A stretch of DNA of 7,535 nucleotides, from positions 1 to 7,535 of the forward strand of contig JALOPK010000299.1 of assembly GCA_025453925.1 (NCBI GenBank), written 5' to 3'. The notes beneath the pieces were generated by a model. The model was not told the origin of the DNA. It searched no databases and saw nothing but the letters and a program-made list of their open reading frames with translations. Positions 1 to 7,535 of the stretch are shown here, piece by piece (position 1 is the stretch's first letter; the number at the start of each line of letters is the position of its first letter). Made by a program: the position numbers and the translations under genes. This DNA comes from Candidatus Eiseniibacteriota bacterium (GTDB lineage Bacteria > JAFGKV01).

Positions 1-198
1 ATCGAACCCTGAGTCATGACGGGGGATGGCAAACAGGATGGTATCGGCGCTTCCCCAGAACTCCGTTCGCTCCACGGCCCACCGGAAGCTGCCCACCACT
101 TCCTCGTCGTCGCTGGTGTTGGTCACGGTGAAGGTGCGGGCGGAGAGGAGCGCGGGAACGAGTAGGCTGATCATGACGGGTATGGCCATGCGTCTCAT
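1..198 (-). CDS. Secreted beta-helix-like surface protein, N-terminal 66 residues (runs off window)
   Basis: The minus-strand frame starts at ATG 198-196 and is open to base 1, so only 66 residues are visible. Residues 1-20 form a signal peptide: basic MRR, then a hydrophobic run ending LLSA. The mature start TFTVTNTSDDEE is followed by GSFRWAVE and ADTILFAIP. This resembles the opening of secreted right-handed beta-helix proteins (CSLREA/choice-of-anchor type), which begin TFTVTNTxDSGxGSLRxAI...ADTIxFxIP; that match is from memory of the family. A GGAGG ribosome site (210-206) lies 7 bases upstream and fixes the start, although in-frame ATGs also occur at codons 4 and 9. The gene is read divergently from the CotH gene. 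Function is unknown beyond likely export to the cell surface or outside. The identification as a secreted protein is good; the beta-helix family assignment is moderate because most of the protein is missing. Confidence 0.72.
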   Translation of the reverse strand, partial: MRRMAIPVMISLLVPALLSARTFTVTNTSDDEEVVGSFRWAVERTEFWGSADTILFAIPRHDSGFD

Positions 199-205
199 GA
201 AGAGA

Positions 206-210
206 CCTCC
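206..210 (-). promoter_or_regulatory. Ribosome binding site of the secreted-protein gene
   Basis: GGAGG on the minus strand, 7 bases before ATG 198-196. It selects this start over the downstream in-frame ATGs. Confidence 0.7.
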
Positions 211-740
211 CGTGGTGGCCGGGATGGCTGCTGTGTGAGGACGGTCGTGTGGAGGATCGGCGCATGCCGACGCTGCCTGCATGGGAGCTGCGCGCCCGGA
301 GGAGAAATCGAAGGCGGATTCTGTCGTACGAGCCTCGGTCATCAGCCACCCCGCCATGACACGAACGCCGTTATCTTCAGTAGTGGCCGCCCTCCGCGGT
401 GGGCGCCCTTGTGAGAAGAATCATCGTCAATAAGCCACCGATTCATCGTGCGTCAAGTCATCCATTTGTTGGAGCCGGAGGCGGTCATCCCTGTAGTCCC
501 GCGTTGCGATATTGCGCATCATTCATGCTCGAGCGGTACGAACAGGGTTCCTCTTCATCCGGCCCGGTTGCCGTGCCCTCGGCGCGATAGAGGCTCAGCA
601 GTCCGCGTAGACCGACTCGCGGCCCGCTCAACCTTTCCGGCGGCGGCGCATCCAACGGATGAGCCGGGATCGCCTTCCCGCCATGCGTGTGCGGCTCGCA
701 ACCCGCTCCGTCCAGACGCCTCGGACTGCGCTCACTCCAA
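211..740. other. Intergenic region between divergent secreted-protein genes
   Basis: About 550 bases separate two divergent starts. Several short frames are open, as expected in GC-rich DNA, but none has a recognisable protein or a convincing ribosome site. Small inverted repeats are present: TCGGC/GCCGA around a 4-base loop at 257-270, CGCCC/GGGCG at 388-405, and CCGCG/CGCGG at 603-622. None is followed by a T-run, so they do not look like terminators. Promoters for both genes must lie here, but I cannot point to a clear sigma-70 or Bacteroidetes-type (TTTG/TAnnTTTG) element. Confidence 0.5.
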
Positions 741-745
741 GGGAG
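741..745 (+). promoter_or_regulatory. Ribosome binding site deciding the GTG start of the CotH gene
   Basis: GGGAG lies 7 bases before GTG 753. A longer in-frame reading from GTG 687 has no such site and would put 22 non-signal residues (rich in Arg, Ser and Pro) before the signal peptide. Confidence 0.65.
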
Positions 746-752
746 AACCCTC

Positions 753-3266
753 GTGAAACAGACGATCTTCGGTGCCGTGCTTTGCTGGCTGACCCTCGCA
801 TCCTCTTCCGCCCTGGGGGCGCTGTCGCCGCCGTCGCACCCTCTGTTCGAGGGCGACGCGGTGCATGAGATCAGTCTGACCTTCCACCAGCCGGGGTGGT
901 GGGATTCGCTGACGGCCAACTTCGAGGTCCCGGGTGATCCTCTGTACCTGGCTGCCGAGTTCGACTGGGGCGGCGTGCACTTCGACAGCATCGGCGTGCG
1001 CTTCAAGGGGCACAGCAGCTACAGCTCATACCCCGGGGTCAAGAAACCCCTCATGCTGGACATCAACGAGTTCGTCGAAGGTCAGGAGATCTCCGGGCTC
1101 GACAAGCTCAACCTGAACAATGCCTTTCTCGATCCGACCTTCGTGCGGGAGCGGTGCTGCTACGAGTTGTGCGAAGCTCTGGGCCTCCCCACCGTGCGCA
1201 CCAACTTCGCGGCGCTGCACATCAACGGCGAGTACTGGGGCCTCTACGTGCTGGTCGAGCAACTCGATCAGGAGTTCATCGAGAGCAGGTTCGGCAGCGG
1301 AGAGGCCGGCAACCTTTGGATGGGTGAACCCCACGGGAGCTTCACCTACCGGGGCAACGAGCAGGCGGCGTACTACCAGGAGTACGAGCTGGAATCCAAT
1401 GAGGAGGAGAACGACTGGTCGGCGCTGGTTGAGGTGGTGGATGGACTGAACAATACCCCTGTGTACGCGCGTCCCGCGGCCATCTCGCCCCTGATGGACG
1501 TGAACTCCGCCCTTGCCATGCTCGCCATCGACAACTTCGTGGTGAACCTCGACTCGTACATCGGCCGGTGCGGCAACTTCTACTTCTACCATCGCGACCG
1601 AGACAGCCGGGTCGTCTTCGCCAAGTGGGACGTGAACGAGGCATGGGGCCTGTTCAACATGGCCAACATGTCGGCCAGCCAGCTCAGGGAGCTGGATCCG
1701 TTCTGGACGAACCCCATGCCCGGAGAGGGCCGGCCGTTGGCAACCCAGCTCTGGCAGGTGGACACCTACCGGGAGCTCTACCTGGGGCACATGCGCCGGC
1801 TCATGGCCGGAGCCGCCCAACCCGACACCCTCATCGCTCGCATGAACCTGCTCCGCGACATGATCCGACCGTTCGTCTACGCAGACGAGAACAAGATGTT
1901 CAGCGACACGGACTTCGATGCCTCCATGACTGCGGATGTCGTCTTCGGCGGCGGGCCGCACCCCCGCACCATCCCGGCCCTGGAACCGTTCATCAGGATT
2001 CGAGATGCCTGGCTGTCTCAGCAGATCGGTACGTGGACGGGCCGGGGAACCGTGGTGCTCAACGAGCTGATGGCGGACAATCAGACCACGGTGGCCGACG
2101 ATCAGGGCGACTATGACGACTGGGTGGAAATCGCCAACGTGGGATCCGGTGCAGTGAACCTGGAGGGTCTGGCGCTGACCGACGATGTAGGCGATACGAC
2201 CTGCCATTTCGTGTTCCCTGACTTGGTCCTCGATCCAGGGCAGTACGTCGTGGTCTGGGCGGACAATGAGCCGGAGGAGGGACCCCTGCACGCACCCTTC
2301 AAGCTGGATGATGCGGGCGAAGAGGTCTACCTCCTGGATGCATGGGTGGTGAGCGATCAGGTGGCGTATCCGGAGCTGGGTGGGGATGTCTCCTGGGGCC
2401 GGTGGCCCGACGGCACGGGGGCATGGCGGCTCGTGAGTCTGCCCACCCCAGGGGCAGAGAACCAGAATCCCGTCAACCCCGAGGAGATCGCGCTGTTCAT
2501 CAACGAGTTCCTGGCGGACAACGAAAGCGTCAGCCAGGATGAGATGGGCGAGTACGAAGACTGGGTCGAGATCTTCAACCCGGGGACGGAGCCCGTGCCC
2601 TTGGGCGGGCTATTCCTGACCGATGACCTCTCGGCCACGACGAAGTGGGCGTTCCCCGAGACCACCGTCGCACCAGGCGGGTTCCTGGTGATCTGGTGCG
2701 ACGGCGAGGATGACGGCCCCCTGCATGCCGCCTTCAAACTGGATGCCGACGGTGAGGAGCTGGGGCTCTTCGGCAGGATCTCGGCGGGCAACACCCTCAT
2801 CGACAGCCACCTCTTCGGCGCCCAGGCGCCGGATATCAGCGAAGGCCGGCGTCCCGATGGGAGCGAGACCTGGGTGGGGTTCTCGTGGGGTTCTCGATGC
2901 CGACACCCGGGGCCTCCAACGATGACGCCGCCCCGGCGGATGGGCCGATTCCCGCCTGCTACGCCTTGTTTCCCGCCTACCCCAATCCCTTCGCCCACAC
3001 CACCGAGATCACCTTCGTCGCCCCCGTGCAGGGGCGGGTTCGCCTGGGGGTATACGCGCCCTCGGGGCAGAGGATCGCCACCATCACCGACGAGGTCGTT
3101 GCGCCCGGGTCCGCCCGCGCGATCTGGGACGGATGCGGCGAGGATGGCCGCCGGGTCGGCGCGGGAGTCTACCTGCTGCGCATGGAGGCTGGGGAGTTCG
3201 CCGCAACGGGACGGGTGGTTGTCGTGCGATAGGGATGGTCGGCGATTGGCCATGGGTTGCAGATGA
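753..3266 (+). CDS. Secreted CotH-kinase-like protein with two lamin-tail domains; frameshifted near the C-terminus
   Basis: From GTG 753 the frame encodes 837 residues. Residues 1-22 are a signal peptide (MKQTIFGAVLCWLTLASSSA region, cleavage after ALG or ALGA). Residues ~35-425 are CotH-like: VRFKGHSSY (Lys ~85), LNLNNAFLDPTFVRERCCYE, INGEYWGLYVLVEQLD, and the putative metal-binding KWDVNEAWG (Asp ~293). Two lamin-tail (LTD) domains follow at ~434-535 and ~580-680, both with NE(L/F)xADN, DWVEI, LTDD and a conserved PLHAxFKLDxxGEE. CotH of Bacillus is an atypical secreted kinase of spore-coat proteins; in Gram-negatives CotH-LTD proteins are exported and their substrates are unknown. After residue ~711 the frame is wrong: an 11-base tandem duplication (2874-2895) moves reading into a Pro/Arg-rich 126-residue tail ending at TGA 3264-3266. 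The correct C-terminus lies at 2885-3232 in another frame; the repaired protein would be 822 residues. Either a sequence error or a true mutation is possible. Confidence 0.85.
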   Translation: MKQTIFGAVLCWLTLASSSALGALSPPSHPLFEGDAVHEISLTFHQPGWWDSLTANFEVPGDPLYLAAEFDWGGVHFDSIGVRFKGHSSYSSYPGVKKPLMLDINEFVEGQEISGLDKLNLNNAFLDPTFVRERCCYELCEALGLPTVRTNFAALHINGEYWGLYVLVEQLDQEFIESRFGSGEAGNLWMGEPHGSFTYRGNEQAAYYQEYELESNEEENDWSALVEVVDGLNNTPVYARPAAISPLMDVNSALAMLAIDNFVVNLDSYIGRCGNFYFYHRDRDSRVVFAKWDVNEAWGLFNMANMSASQLRELDPFWTNPMPGEGRPLATQLWQVDTYRELYLGHMRRLMAGAAQPDTLIARMNLLRDMIRPFVYADENKMFSDTDFDASMTADVVFGGGPHPRTIPALEPFIRIRDAWLSQQIGTWTGRGTVVLNELMADNQTTVADDQGDYDDWVEIANVGSGAVNLEGLALTDDVGDTTCHFVFPDLVLDPGQYVVVWADNEPEEGPLHAPFKLDDAGEEVYLLDAWVVSDQVAYPELGGDVSWGRWPDGTGAWRLVSLPTPGAENQNPVNPEEIALFINEFLADNESVSQDEMGEYEDWVEIFNPGTEPVPLGGLFLTDDLSATTKWAFPETTVAPGGFLVIWCDGEDDGPLHAAFKLDADGEELGLFGRISAGNTLIDSHLFGAQAPDISEGRRPDGSETWVGFSWGSRCRHPGPPTMTPPRRMGRFPPATPCFPPTPIPSPTPPRSPSSPPCRGGFAWGYTRPRGRGSPPSPTRSLRPGPPARSGTDAARMAAGSARESTCCAWRLGSSPQRDGWLSCDRDGRRLAMGCR
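2052..2790 (+). repeat. Tandem duplication of the lamin-tail (LTD) coding unit
   Basis: Two diverged copies of one domain lie within the CotH gene, at about 2052-2355 and 2490-2790. Paired landmarks are NELMADN/NEFLADN, DDWVEIAN/EDWVEIFN, ALTDD/FLTDD, and GPLHAPFKLDDAGEE/GPLHAAFKLDADGEE. The copies are clearly homologous at DNA level but diverged, so this is an old domain duplication. LTD modules are Ig-like folds used in extracellular or cell-surface binding. Confidence 0.75.
2874..2895 (+). repeat. Perfect 11-base tandem duplication causing the frameshift
   Basis: GTGGGGTTCTC occurs twice with no gap (2874-2884 and 2885-2895). Read with both copies, TGG GTG GGG TTC TCG leads into a Pro/Arg-rich nonsense tail. 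With one copy removed, the same codons run straight into ATG CCG ACA CCC GGG and on through the YPNPF sorting domain to TAG 3230-3232. The unit length is not a multiple of three, so the duplication alone accounts for the break. Confidence 0.9.
2885..3232 (+). pseudogene. Displaced C-terminal FlgD-Ig/type-A sorting domain of the CotH protein
   Basis: This frame continues the CotH protein once the 11-base duplication is ignored. It gives 111 residues after the join: a linker (PTPGASNDDAAPADGP), then YALFPAYPNPFAHTTEITF, GRVRLGVYAPSGQRIATI, AIWDGCGEDGRRVGAGVYLL and EAGEFAATGRVVVVR. The YPNPF, VYxxxGxRI, WDGxxxxGxxVxxGVY and final VxR pattern is that of FlgD-Ig-like or type-A C-terminal sorting domains of FCB-group secreted proteins. 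In Bacteroidetes such domains direct proteins to type IX secretion; whether that system exists here cannot be seen. It has no independent ribosome site, so it is a broken end rather than a separate gene. Confidence 0.85.
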
Positions 3267-3290
3267 CTGCCTTGCTCAGAGGGCCTCCTC

Positions 3291-3372
3291 GGCACGGCCG
3301 GACCGTGTCTTGGGCCGAAGGGAGAGATAGTAGCCCGCGGCGGCGGCACAGGGCGTTGAATTCCGCCGCCGT
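3291..3372. terminator. GC-rich hairpins between the convergent CotH and mobA genes (candidate terminator)
   Basis: Two inverted repeats lie in the ~170-base convergent gap. GGCACGG (3291-3297) pairs with CCGTGTC (3303-3309) around a 5-base loop. GGCGGCGG (3339-3346) pairs with CCGCCGCC (3363-3370) around a 16-base loop. Both can fold on either strand. Neither is followed by a clear T-run, so this is not a textbook intrinsic terminator; position is the main argument. Confidence 0.3.
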
Positions 3373-3401
3373 GTATGATTCTCAGGCTGCCTCGTCGAGT
3401 C

Positions 3402-4022
3402 CTACCGGGTGGCAGGCTGCCCCGCCATATCGTCGCGCACGCGGAGTGCACGGTGGTAGTCTTCCAGGGAGTTGATGTTGAACAGGCACCGGGACCAGAA
3501 CGGATCGTCTTCGACATCAACCACGCGAACATCAACCTCATCCCAGAATGCCGTTACCCGGCGGTGGTCCCTGCCGATGGCGGCCCGAATGGCCGGCAGG
3601 CATCCCCGGTGATACACCCCGAGCAAAGGGTGGAGGCCATCCTGCGTGCGAAGGACCGTGGCCTGCGCCCCCGTGGAGAGCTCCAAGAGGCGGTGAATGG
3701 CATCCGGCTCGACGAACGGCATGTCTGCCGCGACCACGACGGCGACGGGCTGTTCCGCCGCCTCCAGGCCGAGCATGAGACCCCCGATAGGGCCGAGCCG
3801 CAACTGATCCCGGAGCACATGTGGGCGCGGGAAGGCCGTGGGGATGCTTCGCGCTTGGTTTCCCACGAGCCAAACCTCCGGCAAGGCTCCGGTCATGACG
3901 CGGACGATCCGCGACAGGAGCGTCTCCCCTCCCCAGGGCAAGTCGAGCTTCCTCCCCCCCAAACGGCGGCTTCCCCCGCCGGCGAGGATCAGCCCCGCGG
4001 CATCAGCCTGCCCGCCGGTCAC
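3402..4022 (-). CDS. mobA: Molybdenum cofactor guanylyltransferase MobA
   Basis: 206 residues, close to the ~195 usual for MobA. It transfers GMP from GTP to Mo-molybdopterin, giving the guanine-dinucleotide cofactor used by formate dehydrogenases and other DMSO-reductase-family enzymes; it is cytoplasmic. Visible motifs, in order: nucleotide-binding loop LILAGGGSRRLGGRK (11-25), DQLRLGPIGGLMLGLEA (72-88), Mg-binding VVVAADMPFV with Asp ~100, HPLLGVY (131-137) and FNINSLEDY (181-189). The start is GTG 4022-4020, which overlaps the fdhD stop as GTGA and sits just before the N-terminal strand; the same frame is open further upstream, but that reading would lie inside fdhD. The overlap implies translational coupling with fdhD. 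It ends at TAG 3404-3402, converging on the CotH gene. No C-terminal MobB fusion is present. The context says it supplies cofactor to the divergent formate dehydrogenase. Confidence 0.93.
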   Translation of the reverse strand: MTGGQADAAGLILAGGGSRRLGGRKLDLPWGGETLLSRIVRVMTGALPEVWLVGNQARSIPTAFPRPHVLRDQLRLGPIGGLMLGLEAAEQPVAVVVAADMPFVEPDAIHRLLELSTGAQATVLRTQDGLHPLLGVYHRGCLPAIRAAIGRDHRRVTAFWDEVDVRVVDVEDDPFWSRCLFNINSLEDYHRALRVRDDMAGQPATR

Positions 4023-4795
4023 CCCGCCTGCACCCGGTGGTGGTGGGTGTAGACGTTGCAGCGCCCAGCCCGCGCGAATCCCACCAGAGTAAGTCCGTGG
4101 GTTTCGGCGAGGTGTACCGCTCCTGCCGTGGGCGCCGAGCGCGACACAATCAAGGGCACGCCGGCCCGGATTGACTTCAGCACGATGTCGGTGCTGAGCC
4201 GGCCGGTGGACACCAGCATCGCGTCGTCGCTTGGCGGCCACTGCGTTCGTAGCGCGTGGCCAATGACTTTGTCAACGGCATTGTGACGGCCGATGTCATC
4301 GCATACCCAGCGAAAGCCACCATCCATCCAGAGCCCCGCGGTATGGACGCCACCCGTGCGCCGGAAGAGGGTTGACCGGTGTGTCAGTTCGCCGACCGCG
4401 GCAAGCACCTCCGGGAGCCGATGCAGCCCCTCCTGACGAATCACGGGGAAGTACTCTGCCCACAGGGGTGAGACGCGAGAAATGCCGCGGCCGCACCCCG
4501 AGGTGAACGTACGAACGATGTCCGGCAACTTCGGCGGCGGAGTACTCAGGGTCACATAGACGGCGTGAAGCCTTTGATTGCTTCGTATCTCAGCCACTTC
4601 GCCCGGCACGGCAAACGCGCACTCGGCGAAGAGGAATCCCACCGCCAATTCCTCGAGTTCCGCCGGCAGCGCCATCAGGGCGGCGGCCTCCTCGCCGTTG
4701 ACCGCGATCGTGACGCGGGCCTCGCTGACAAGGGTGTCGACATGGGTCTCGCAACCCCCGTCGACCCACCGGATGATCGTTCGTTCTTCGACCAT
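4019..4795 (-). CDS. fdhD: Formate dehydrogenase accessory sulfurtransferase FdhD
   Basis: 258 residues from ATG 4795-4793 (E. coli FdhD is ~277). FdhD carries sulfur from a cysteine desulfurase to the molybdenum cofactor of formate dehydrogenase and is required for its activity; it is cytoplasmic. Family landmarks: RTIIRWVDGG (5-14), LAVGFLFAE (50-58), the active-site loop TSGCGRG (98-104, Cys101), TGGVHTAGL (147-155), DDIGRHNAVDKVIG (166-179), STGRLSTDIVLK (196-207), and SRSAPTAGAVHLAETHGLTL with GFARAGRCNVYT near the end. The E. coli loop has two cysteines; here the second position is Gly104 and only Cys101 remains. GAGGGG (4804-4799) lies a few bases before the ATG and supports this start; the upstream extension in the same frame (to 5134) has no FdhD-like sequence. 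It is coupled to mobA by a GTGA overlap and divergent from the receiver-fdhA genes. Confidence 0.95.
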   Translation of the reverse strand: MVEERTIIRWVDGGCETHVDTLVSEARVTIAVNGEEAAALMALPAELEELAVGFLFAECAFAVPGEVAEIRSNQRLHAVYVTLSTPPPKLPDIVRTFTSGCGRGISRVSPLWAEYFPVIRQEGLHRLPEVLAAVGELTHRSTLFRRTGGVHTAGLWMDGGFRWVCDDIGRHNAVDKVIGHALRTQWPPSDDAMLVSTGRLSTDIVLKSIRAGVPLIVSRSAPTAGAVHLAETHGLTLVGFARAGRCNVYTHHHRVQAG

Positions 4796-4798
4796 GAT

Positions 4799-4804
4799 CC
4801 CCTC
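4799..4804 (-). promoter_or_regulatory. Ribosome binding site fixing the fdhD start
   Basis: GAGGGG on the minus strand. The GAGG core is 5 bases from ATG 4795-4793. The frame is open for 113 more codons upstream, so this site and family length decide the start. Confidence 0.6.
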
Positions 4805-4899
4805 GGGAGAGCCGTCGCCCCGTGATCCGATGGGCTCGTGCGGCGATGTGGTGTCGCTGAAGGCGACTTTCCTTGAAATGATGGGCCACCATGCATATA

Positions 4900-4926
4900 C
4901 TGAATGAATCGTTGCATGCATGTCAA
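4900..4926 (-). promoter_or_regulatory. Possible fdhD promoter (TTGACA element)
   Basis: A perfect TTGACA lies on the minus strand at 4926-4921. The region 18-21 bases further on reads CAGTATATG, giving only weak -10 matches (CAGTAT at 18 or TATATG at 21). The -35 box overlaps a near-palindrome GTTG-N9-CAAC (4911-4927). FCB-group promoters often depart from this consensus, so this is a tentative call. Confidence 0.22.
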
Positions 4927-5112
4927 CAGGATGCGCGTCGGGCTCTGCGGGATCATGTGTTCTCCTGCGCGGCCGATGGGCGTGGCTTCCTGTCCGCGAT
5001 GTCGGACGATGGGTGCCCACGGCTATCTCCCGGTGCACAGGGGAGCGTGATGCCCCGGTTGCGCAGTCCGGAAGCAGTCCCTTGTCGCCATCGAGCGGGG
5101 ACGGTCTGGTGT

Positions 5113-5128
5113 GGGCGTTCAGGCTGCA
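5113..5128 (+). promoter_or_regulatory. Possible sigma-54 (-24/-12) promoter for the receiver-fdhA genes
   Basis: GGGCGTTCAGGCTGCA contains the invariant GG-N10-GC spacing (GG 5114-5115, GC 5126-5127) and the TGCA end of the -12 element. Other consensus positions (TGGCAC) match only partly. E. coli fdhF is sigma-54 dependent, which makes the idea plausible, but a GG-N10-GC match arises often by chance in GC-rich DNA. Transcription would begin near 5139, about 65 bases before the receiver start. Confidence 0.2.
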
Positions 5129-5204
5129 TTCCATGTCTCCCGTGGAAGAGGCCCGTTCGCCCTCGTCCGGCTGGATCCGCGCTTTGAGAAGGAGCGATCA
5201 CGCC

Positions 5205-5606
5205 ATGGCTCAGGAAGTCCTTGTCGTCGATGATGACCCCGACCTGGTCGAGGCCGTCCGGATCATTCTGGAGGCGGAAAGTTTTGTGGTCTTTGCCGCC
5301 CGCGATGGCTCTGAGGCCAAGAAACGGCTGGCAGAGCACCGGCCGGATGTCATCCTCCTCGATGTGATGATGGCGACCGACACAGAGGGTTTCGACCTGG
5401 CTTACGAGCTCGTGGACGACCCGGCAACGAAGGACATCCCCATCATCATGCTGACCGCCATGGCACAGTCGCAGAACTACGTCGAGACATTCCAGTACAT
5501 TACCGAGCGGCCCTGGCCGGTGAGCATGTTCCTGGAGAAGCCAATCGCGCCGAAGAAACTCGTTGAAACCATTCGCAAGGTCTTGGAAGAGCATCCGGGG
5601 CGCTGA
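5205..5606 (+). CDS. Stand-alone response-regulator receiver protein
   Basis: 133 residues consisting only of a CheY-like receiver domain; no DNA-binding or enzymatic output domain follows. Acidic pocket VVDDDPD (Asp9-Asp11), phospho-acceptor Asp53 in VILLDVMM, switch Thr84 in IIMLTA, and Lys112 in FLEKP are all present, so it should accept phosphate from a histidine kinase. Thr84 to Lys112 is 28 residues against 22 in CheY, i.e. an insertion around SQNYVETFQYITERPWPV between strands 4 and 5. The start ATG 5205 is chosen because the receiver fold begins at residue 4 and AAGGAG (5189-5194) lies upstream; the same frame is open back to 4920 but that part is not protein-like. The stop is 9 bases before the formate dehydrogenase ATG, so the two are very likely co-transcribed. 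No kinase is in the window. The output is unknown: it may act through protein contact with the enzyme or with a separate regulator. Confidence 0.9.
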   Translation: MAQEVLVVDDDPDLVEAVRIILEAESFVVFAARDGSEAKKRLAEHRPDVILLDVMMATDTEGFDLAYELVDDPATKDIPIIMLTAMAQSQNYVETFQYITERPWPVSMFLEKPIAPKKLVETIRKVLEEHPGR

Positions 5607-5615
5607 GGGAAGAAC

Positions 5616-7535
5616 ATGGCAACCATTACGATCAAACTGAACGGCAAGACGGTGGAGTGTGAGCGGGGACAGACCATCCTCGACGCCGCTGCCCTGCACG
5701 GAGTGCGCATCCCTACTCTGTGCTACCACCCGCAGGTCAGCCGTACCGGTGCCTGCCGGATCTGCGCGGTTCGCGTGAACAAGACCATGTTCAAGACCGC
5801 CTGCACCGAACCGGTCGCGCCGGGAATGGACATCGTGACGGTGGATCCTGAGATTCTCGACATGCGCAGAGGCATCTTGAACTTGCTTCTTGCCGAGGGG
5901 GATCACAACTGCCTGTTCTGCGAAGCGAATGGCGCATGTGAACTCCAGGCCCTCTGCTTCCAGCACGGTATCGATGTAGCCCCGACGATCGGTGCGGCGA
6001 AGAACCGCCGCACGAGAGATGTCGAGTCCAGCGAGGGTCTGCGGCGGGAGGAGAACCGCTGCGTACTGTGCGCACGATGCGTCAAGGCCTGTGAGGAGAT
6101 TCAGCTCAATCGTGTGTGGGGGCTCGCCGGGCGCGGGAGCCATGCCCATCTGACGACCGGGTTGCGCGACGTTCTGGGGGAGTCCGAGTGTGTGCAGTGC
6201 GGCCAGTGCGTGCAGCTCTGCCCGACTGGGGCGCTCTCGTTCCAGACGGTACTCGGCCGCGGCCAGGCGTGGGAGTTGACCTCCCGTCCCAGCATCTGCG
6301 TGTACTGCGGCGTGGGCTGCAAGATCAACTTCTTCACCAATCGAGAGGGACAGCTGGTCAAGGCGGAGGGCGCCGCCGACGGCCCCAATCAGGGGCACCT
6401 GTGCGTCAAAGGGCGGTTCGGGTTCGATTTCGTGCAGAGCCCGACCCGCCTCACCACACCCATGATACGCAAAGAAGGCCGCCTGGTTGAGGCCACCTGG
6501 GACGAGGCGCTGGATTATGCGGCTCACAAGCTGGCAGCCATCAAATCCGCGCACGGTCCAGACGCCATCATGTCGTTTACTTCGGCGAAGTGCACCAACG
6601 AGGAGAACTACCTTCTCCAGAAGTTCATGCGCGCAGTGATCGGCACGAACAATGTCGATCACTGCGCCCGGCTTTGACACAGTTCAACGGTCGCCGGTCT
6701 GGCGGCCACGTTGGGCTCCGGAGCCATGACCAACTCCATACGGGAGATCCCGGTCTCCGAGGGATTCTTCGTCATCGGTTCCAATACCACCGAGAACCAT
6801 CCGGTCATCGGTTCCATGATCAAGAAGGCAGTCATCCACGGCGGCAAGAAGCTGGTGGTCGCGGACCCGCGAAGAATCGAGCTGGCCAAGTATGCCGATG
6901 TGTTCCTGCAGATCCTGCCGGGGACCAACATCGCGCTACTGAACGGCCTGATGCATGTCATTCTTCGCGACGGCTTGCATGATGCCGCGTATGTGCAGAG
7001 TCGCTGCGAAGGATTCGAGGCGCTGGAACAGACGCTGCAGAAGTACACACCGGAGCACGTGGCACAAATCTGCGGCCTTCGGGATCCGGGGCAGATCGTC
7101 GAGGCGGCGCGGCTTCTCGCTTCGACGAAGCCCATGGCGCTTTACTACTGCATGGGAATCACGCAGTTCAAGTCAGGCGTGAACGGGGTCAAATCGGTGG
7201 CCAACCTCCAAATGCTTCTGGGCAACCTCGGCGTGCCGGGCGGAGGGGTGAACCCGCTCCGGGGGCAGAGCAATGTCCAGGGGGCCTGCGACATGGGCGG
7301 TCTTCCCAATGTGCTCACCGCCTACCAGCCGGTGACCAGTGCCGATGCCCGGAAGAAGTTCGAACAGGCATGGGGAGTCCCTGCCCTGCCCGACAAGCCT
7401 GGTCTCACCATCGTCGAATCCATGAACGCCGCGCTCGATGGCAAGGTCAGGGCACTGTACGTTATGGGTGAGAACCCGGCCCTCTCGGATCCCAACCAGC
7501 ACCATGTTATCGAGGCCCTTGAGGCGCTCGAGCTG
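5616..7535 (+). CDS. fdhA: Selenocysteine-containing formate dehydrogenase catalytic subunit, NuoG-like N-terminus (C-terminus beyond window)
   Basis: Oxidises formate or reduces CO2 at a Mo/W bis-guanine-dinucleotide centre; soluble, with no Tat signal. 640 codons are visible of probably ~900. Start ATG 5616 follows GAGGGA with good spacing. Clusters in order: [2Fe-2S] Cys36, 47, 50, 63; His97/Cys99/Cys102/Cys108 as in NuoG; two [4Fe-4S] at Cys149-152-155-159 and Cys192-195-198-202; then the catalytic-domain [4Fe-4S] Cys228-231-235-263 with Lys265. The TGA at 6675-6677 is codon 354 in NNVDHCARL-Sec-HSSTV, the active-site selenocysteine of the family, with the catalytic His next to it. The frame continues unbroken to 7535 through VVADPRR (~415-421), GVNPLRGQSNVQGACDMGGL (~544-563) and LYVMGENPALSDPNQ. 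A SECIS hairpin follows the TGA. The architecture matches NAD(P)-linked or hydrogenase-linked cytoplasmic FDHs (such as Moorella FdhA); the electron-transfer partner is not in view. Annotation that stops at the TGA would give a false 353-residue protein lacking most of the catalytic domain. Confidence 0.95.
6675..6677 (+). other. In-frame UGA selenocysteine codon
   Basis: The TGA lies between CARL and HSSTV, the position occupied by Sec (or Cys) in formate dehydrogenases. The frame on both sides encodes the same enzyme, and the TGA-to-loop distance of the following hairpin fits a bacterial SECIS. Read-through needs SelB, tRNA-Sec and selenophosphate, none of which is encoded here. Confidence 0.95.
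6685..6713 (+). promoter_or_regulatory. Bacterial SECIS element in the fdhA mRNA
   Basis: GGTCGCC (6689-6695) and GGCGGCC (6701-6707) form a seven-pair stem (one G-U) around the five-base loop GGTCT (6696-6700). A lower stem CAAC (6685-6688)/GTTG (6710-6713) extends it, with a two-base bulge (AC 6708-6709) on the 3' side. The loop begins 18 bases after the TGA. From memory the E. coli fdhF SECIS has the same GGUCU loop sequence and the same 18-base distance. It is the SelB-binding hairpin that lets the ribosome read UGA as selenocysteine; it also codes for TVAGLAATL, so it is under double constraint. Confidence 0.9.

Follow-up and report, generated by a model that had tools for sequence, protein, structure and literature searches.

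The TGA at codon 354 of fdhA in a contig from a Candidatus Eiseniibacteriota bacterium is almost certainly decoded as selenocysteine (Sec), which would make the encoded formate dehydrogenase (FDH) alpha subunit a selenoprotein. The window, that is, the whole stretch of DNA analyzed, is the entire contig JALOPK010000299.1, positions 1-7,535 (G000:C339), of assembly GCA_025453925.1. The host genome is a fragmented bin of 502 contigs (82% complete, 2.9% contamination) and was examined by family searches for Sec genes and FDH. Two related genomes were used for comparison, one from the same genus (G001, 94% complete) and one from a sister genus (G002); the host phylum was represented by only three genomes among those examined. 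The features of the window discussed below are as follows.

5616 to 7535, plus strand: fdhA, formate dehydrogenase alpha subunit, read through TGA354 (640 codons; 3' end cut at the contig end).
6675 to 6677, plus strand: TGA codon 354, read as selenocysteine (active-site CARL-U-H; TGA in homologues and in the same-genus orthologue).
6678 to 6721, plus strand: putative bacterial SECIS-type hairpin (SECIS_3 match, stem covariation, loop codons).
5205 to 5606, plus strand: single-domain response regulator, immediately 5' of fdhA; its terminal TGA is a true stop.
4019 to 4795, minus strand: fdhD, sulfurtransferase for FDH maturation (TIGR00129, 176.6 bits, over the cut-off), ending in TGA as a true stop.
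3402 to 4031, minus strand, start provisional: mobA-like molybdenum cofactor guanylyltransferase (PF12804, E 1.1e-32).

Mechanical ORF calling from the ATG at 5616 gave a plus-strand ORF of 353 aa (5616 to 6677) that ended at the TGA at 6675-6677, and calling resumed only at a TTG at 6711, leaving fdhA split in two. When the TGA was treated as a residue, the frame was open from 5616 to 7535 (640 codons), with codon 354 as its sole TGA and 286 codons beyond it. The residue context of codon 354 was N-N-V-D-H-C-A-R-L-U-H-S-S-T-V-A-G-L-A, which contains the FDH alpha active site as CARL-U354-H355. The RGQ-NVQGACDMG motif was also present, as R549-GQSNVQGACDMG, and we take R549 to be the equivalent of E. 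coli R333. The original prediction had ended the frame from 5616 at TGA 6675 after 353 residues, had placed this TGA at a CARx-Sec-H active site followed by 286 further open codons of FDH sequence, and had expected standard gene callers to split or truncate the gene. Its coordinates and counts were exact, the context was indeed CARL-TGA-H, the further codons were confirmed by both the frame and homology, and the two mechanical calls (5616-6677 and the TTG-started piece from 6711) showed the expected split. FdhA has no natural end in the window, as the contig stops at 7535; going by the 908-codon open frame of the G001 orthologue, approximately 268 C-terminal residues are absent.

The domain order of the read-through product was 2Fe-2S (Fer2_4), NADH-G 4Fe-4S (NuoG-type), Nqo3-type ferredoxin, Molybdop_Fe4S4, and Molybdopterin. 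Alignments with FDH alpha subunits of solved structure covered all 640 residues (9wxb, E 5e-143; 6tg9, E 2e-141), and both have Cys opposite codon 354. Because the product matches solved FDH alpha subunits from end to end, the read-through is not a chance open frame. With TIGR01591 (curated cut-off 666.25), the complete G001 orthologue scored 850.8 bits and the window fragment, which holds two thirds of fdhA, scored 537.9 bits. Judged by its sequence, fdhA read through the TGA encodes an FDH alpha subunit.

The host genome encodes tRNA-Sec (selC; 78.8 bits, anticodon TCA), SelB (333.9 bits), and SelA (523.6 bits), all three above curated cut-offs. Two SelD genes (L018 and L019) also scored above cut-off, and both contain an in-frame TGA close to the N-terminus, flanked as G-TGA-AAK. 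The organism had been predicted to have Sec machinery, with a search for selA, selB, selC, and selD proposed as a check; all four were found, including selB and tRNA-Sec, the absence of which had been named as grounds for abandoning the prediction. G001 likewise has an fdhA with TGA, tRNA-Sec, SelB, and a SelD with Sec, but no SelA above cut-off was found in this 94% complete genome. That absence favors a reading in which the UGA is Sec-coding but is suppressed or filled with Cys in an organism lacking Sec synthesis. However, with SelA present in the host genome and in the sister genus (G002, 555.7 bits), and with the rest of the set kept in G001, a missing contig is the simplest explanation, and the absence of SelA from G001 is probably an assembly gap. 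We therefore consider a lack of Sec synthesis very improbable, and decoding of codon 354 as Sec remains the preferred reading.

A weak selA match in G001 was rejected as SelA and assigned as a relative of cysteine desulfurase/selenocysteine lyase. This desulfurase/selenocysteine-lyase-like gene (an SclA-like match) lies just upstream of the G001 selD with Sec (L137, L148). Of the SelD genes in G001 and G002 (L146-L149), one in each genome has TGA; the other lacks it and occupies a long open frame (783 and 752 codons, respectively), possibly encoding a fused SelD.

Aligning codon 354 with Sec- and Cys-containing FDHs, a check proposed with the original prediction, gave TGA at 57 of 109 homologous loci (window copy counted), TGC or TGT at 44, and another codon at 8, all 8 of which are distant homologues. 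The same-genus orthologue is 88% identical and has TGA at codon 354. TGA was also found at this codon in all 11 loci that are 62-83% identical (L054-L064; Acidobacteria, Spirochaetes, and proteobacterial/Syntrophorhabdaceae MAGs). The host genome encodes a second FDH alpha subunit (C393), again with TGA in a CARL-U-H context; its SECIS_3 match scored 39 bits. In a tree of 101 genes, built with the columns around codon 354 left out, the window fdhA fell in a clade of 13 genes (starred in the tree), all with TGA. Approximately 20 changes between Sec and Cys were needed over the whole tree; frequent change from Sec to Cys in FDH is already known (PMC1794560).

A hairpin with a G-containing apical loop lies directly 3' of the TGA, as is expected of a bacterial selenoprotein gene, and it matches the published description of bSECIS elements (PMC13188914). 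Its upper stem pairs 6690-6695 with 6701-6706 around a 5-nt loop, GGTCT (6696-6700), and the helix predicted in the window sequence spans 6681-6717 (-21.3 kcal/mol). The Rfam SECIS_3 match at 6672-6730 (51.3 bits, E 7.7e-10) did not reach the gathering score of 63, which we used as an accessory threshold and not as a requirement; bacterial SECIS elements vary (PMC12013277). The SECIS_3 model also rewards conserved coding sequence, and its score alone is non-discriminating since Cys homologues scored as a control reached 24-42 bits.

Pairing and loop codons separated the two groups of genes, for which the Cys genes are a fair control because they are scattered among the TGA genes in the tree. 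The six-pair stem was paired in 97.7% of cells in the 57 TGA genes versus 65.4% in 41 Cys genes. Column shuffles gave pairing in 84.2% of cells, and none of 1000 shuffles reached the value of the TGA genes. Column pair 17-29 was paired in 57/57 genes, with six standard pair types and the highest mutual information among all column pairs. The loop codons were GGT-CTG in 51/56 TGA genes, compared with 4/38 Cys genes that have the same Gly-Leu pair (Fisher p 7e-16; this test and the shuffles ignore the relatedness of the genes). Free energy against synonymous resampling separated Sec and Cys genes weakly (mean z -0.73 versus -0.30) and was left out of the main evidence. The contrasts in stem pairing and loop codons therefore place the constraint on the RNA, and only in genes that have the TGA, and we regard the hairpin downstream of TGA354 as a SECIS-like element, covarying and specific to TGA genes.

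Two closely related actinobacterial FDH genes (L099 and L125), one with Cys and one with TGA, have identical hairpin sequences. Judging from this pair of sequences, we read them as a recent Sec/Cys switch, and if Cys replaced Sec, the hairpin of the Cys gene would be a fossil SECIS.

Purifying selection was similar on the two sides of the TGA. In the comparison with G001, dN/dS was 0.057 upstream of the TGA (codons 1-353) and 0.061 downstream of it (codons 355-640), and TGA354 was the only internal stop. For these ungapped comparisons, G001 and L060 were counted; L055, L056, and L064 were out of register and were left out. These data indicate that codons 355-640 are translated and are maintained by selection just as codons 1-353 are.

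The TGA could instead be a genuine stop or a sequencing or assembly error, in which case the gene would be a pseudogene or encode a Cys FDH, and standard ORF calling does terminate the gene there. However, sequencing error is excluded because TGA recurs at this codon in the same-genus orthologue, which comes from an independent genome; 55 other homologues, the second host FDH among them, have it as well. The other ground named for abandoning the original prediction, reads with TGC or TGT at 6675-6677, does not apply either. Selection is equally strong on the two sides of the TGA, and the covarying hairpin is specific to genes with TGA. A pseudogene or a sequencing error was rejected on the conserved TGA and the purifying selection after it, and we give this explanation even less credence than a lack of Sec synthesis. 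Reassignment of TGA throughout the genome to an amino acid such as Trp or Gly, read by ordinary sense decoding as in the codes of some candidate bacterial lineages, has next to no probability, because TGA naturally ends fdhD and the response regulator in the window, the SelA and SelB frames lack in-frame TGA, those found lie at the Sec positions of FDH and SelD with none seen at Trp or Gly positions in the genes examined, and the residue at codon 354 in homologues is Cys rather than Trp or Gly. The original reading of this FDH as a selenoprotein is supported by the equivalence of TGA and Cys codons and by the Sec genes, and also by the hairpin, which had not been mentioned.

Upstream of fdhA, the best MobA models scored the mobA-like gene below their curated cut-offs. 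The response regulator is also found directly upstream of fdhA in G001 (L134, 7297-7698, minus strand, 78% identical) and in L054 (3593-3985, 68% identical); it was not seen at that place in the other loci. This regulator may regulate the FDH operon. We propose only tentatively, and with some doubt, that the Sec trait of the host (two FDHs and two SelDs with Sec) is so far undescribed and that the regulator may act directly on FDH. A fused NuoE-NuoF protein follows fdhA in G001 and L054, and a formate/nitrite transporter is also found downstream in G001; the window contig ends inside fdhA. This arrangement in relatives suggests an NAD(P)-linked enzyme. Elsewhere in the window, the plus-strand frame at 753-2900 encodes a CotH kinase-like protein with lamin-tail domains, and a second plus-strand frame at 2885-3232 resembles its C-terminal sorting-type tail, so a frameshift near 2885 is likely.

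We infer Sec insertion, the metal, the reaction direction, and the electron acceptor from these comparisons. The enzyme would be a cytoplasmic formate dehydrogenase of the NAD(P) type with a molybdenum/tungsten bis-MGD cofactor, and the gene would encode its catalytic alpha subunit. SelB carrying Sec-tRNA(Sec) would bind the hairpin, which begins a few nucleotides 3' of the UGA, and would deliver Sec at codon 354, the metal-ligating position. The fused NuoE-NuoF-like subunit encoded downstream in complete relatives would then pass electrons to NAD(P).

Over its 640 residues, the window FDH has the same domain order as the NAD+-dependent FdsA of the Rhodobacter capsulatus type (6tg9), and the two have the CAR-x-C/U-H active site in common. 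However, FdsA has Cys at the metal ligand where the window FDH is predicted to have Sec, and its partner subunits, FdsB and FdsG, are separate, whereas relatives of the window have the fused NuoE-NuoF protein. E. coli FDH-H (FdhF, 1aa6) resembles the window FDH in its UGA-encoded Sec, the hairpin that follows at once with a GGUCUG loop, and the Sec-His pair. In contrast, the N-terminal NuoG-like Fe-S region is missing from FDH-H, whose match begins at residue 226 of the window FDH, and FDH-H is part of formate hydrogenlyase. The alpha subunits with Sec of L054-L064 are also among the closest known counterparts; they have the same hairpin and differ only in sequence divergence and neighboring genes, and L054 also shares the mobA-fdhD, response regulator, and NuoEF order.

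Among bacterial selenoproteins, the FDH alpha subunit has the widest distribution; an early survey recorded it in 67 of 75 Sec-using bacteria (PMC1794560). Distinguishing a UGA that encodes Sec from a stop codon is a well-known difficulty of bacterial genome annotation (PMC12013277). The window FDH is a textbook case of an FDH with Sec and reveals no new principle. Its value lies in annotation and in a record of the Sec trait for a lineage with three genomes at the phylum level. The annotation is corrected for a central energy-metabolism enzyme that automatic calling would otherwise split in two, and a poorly sampled lineage is shown to use selenocysteine and, probably, formate or CO2 metabolism.
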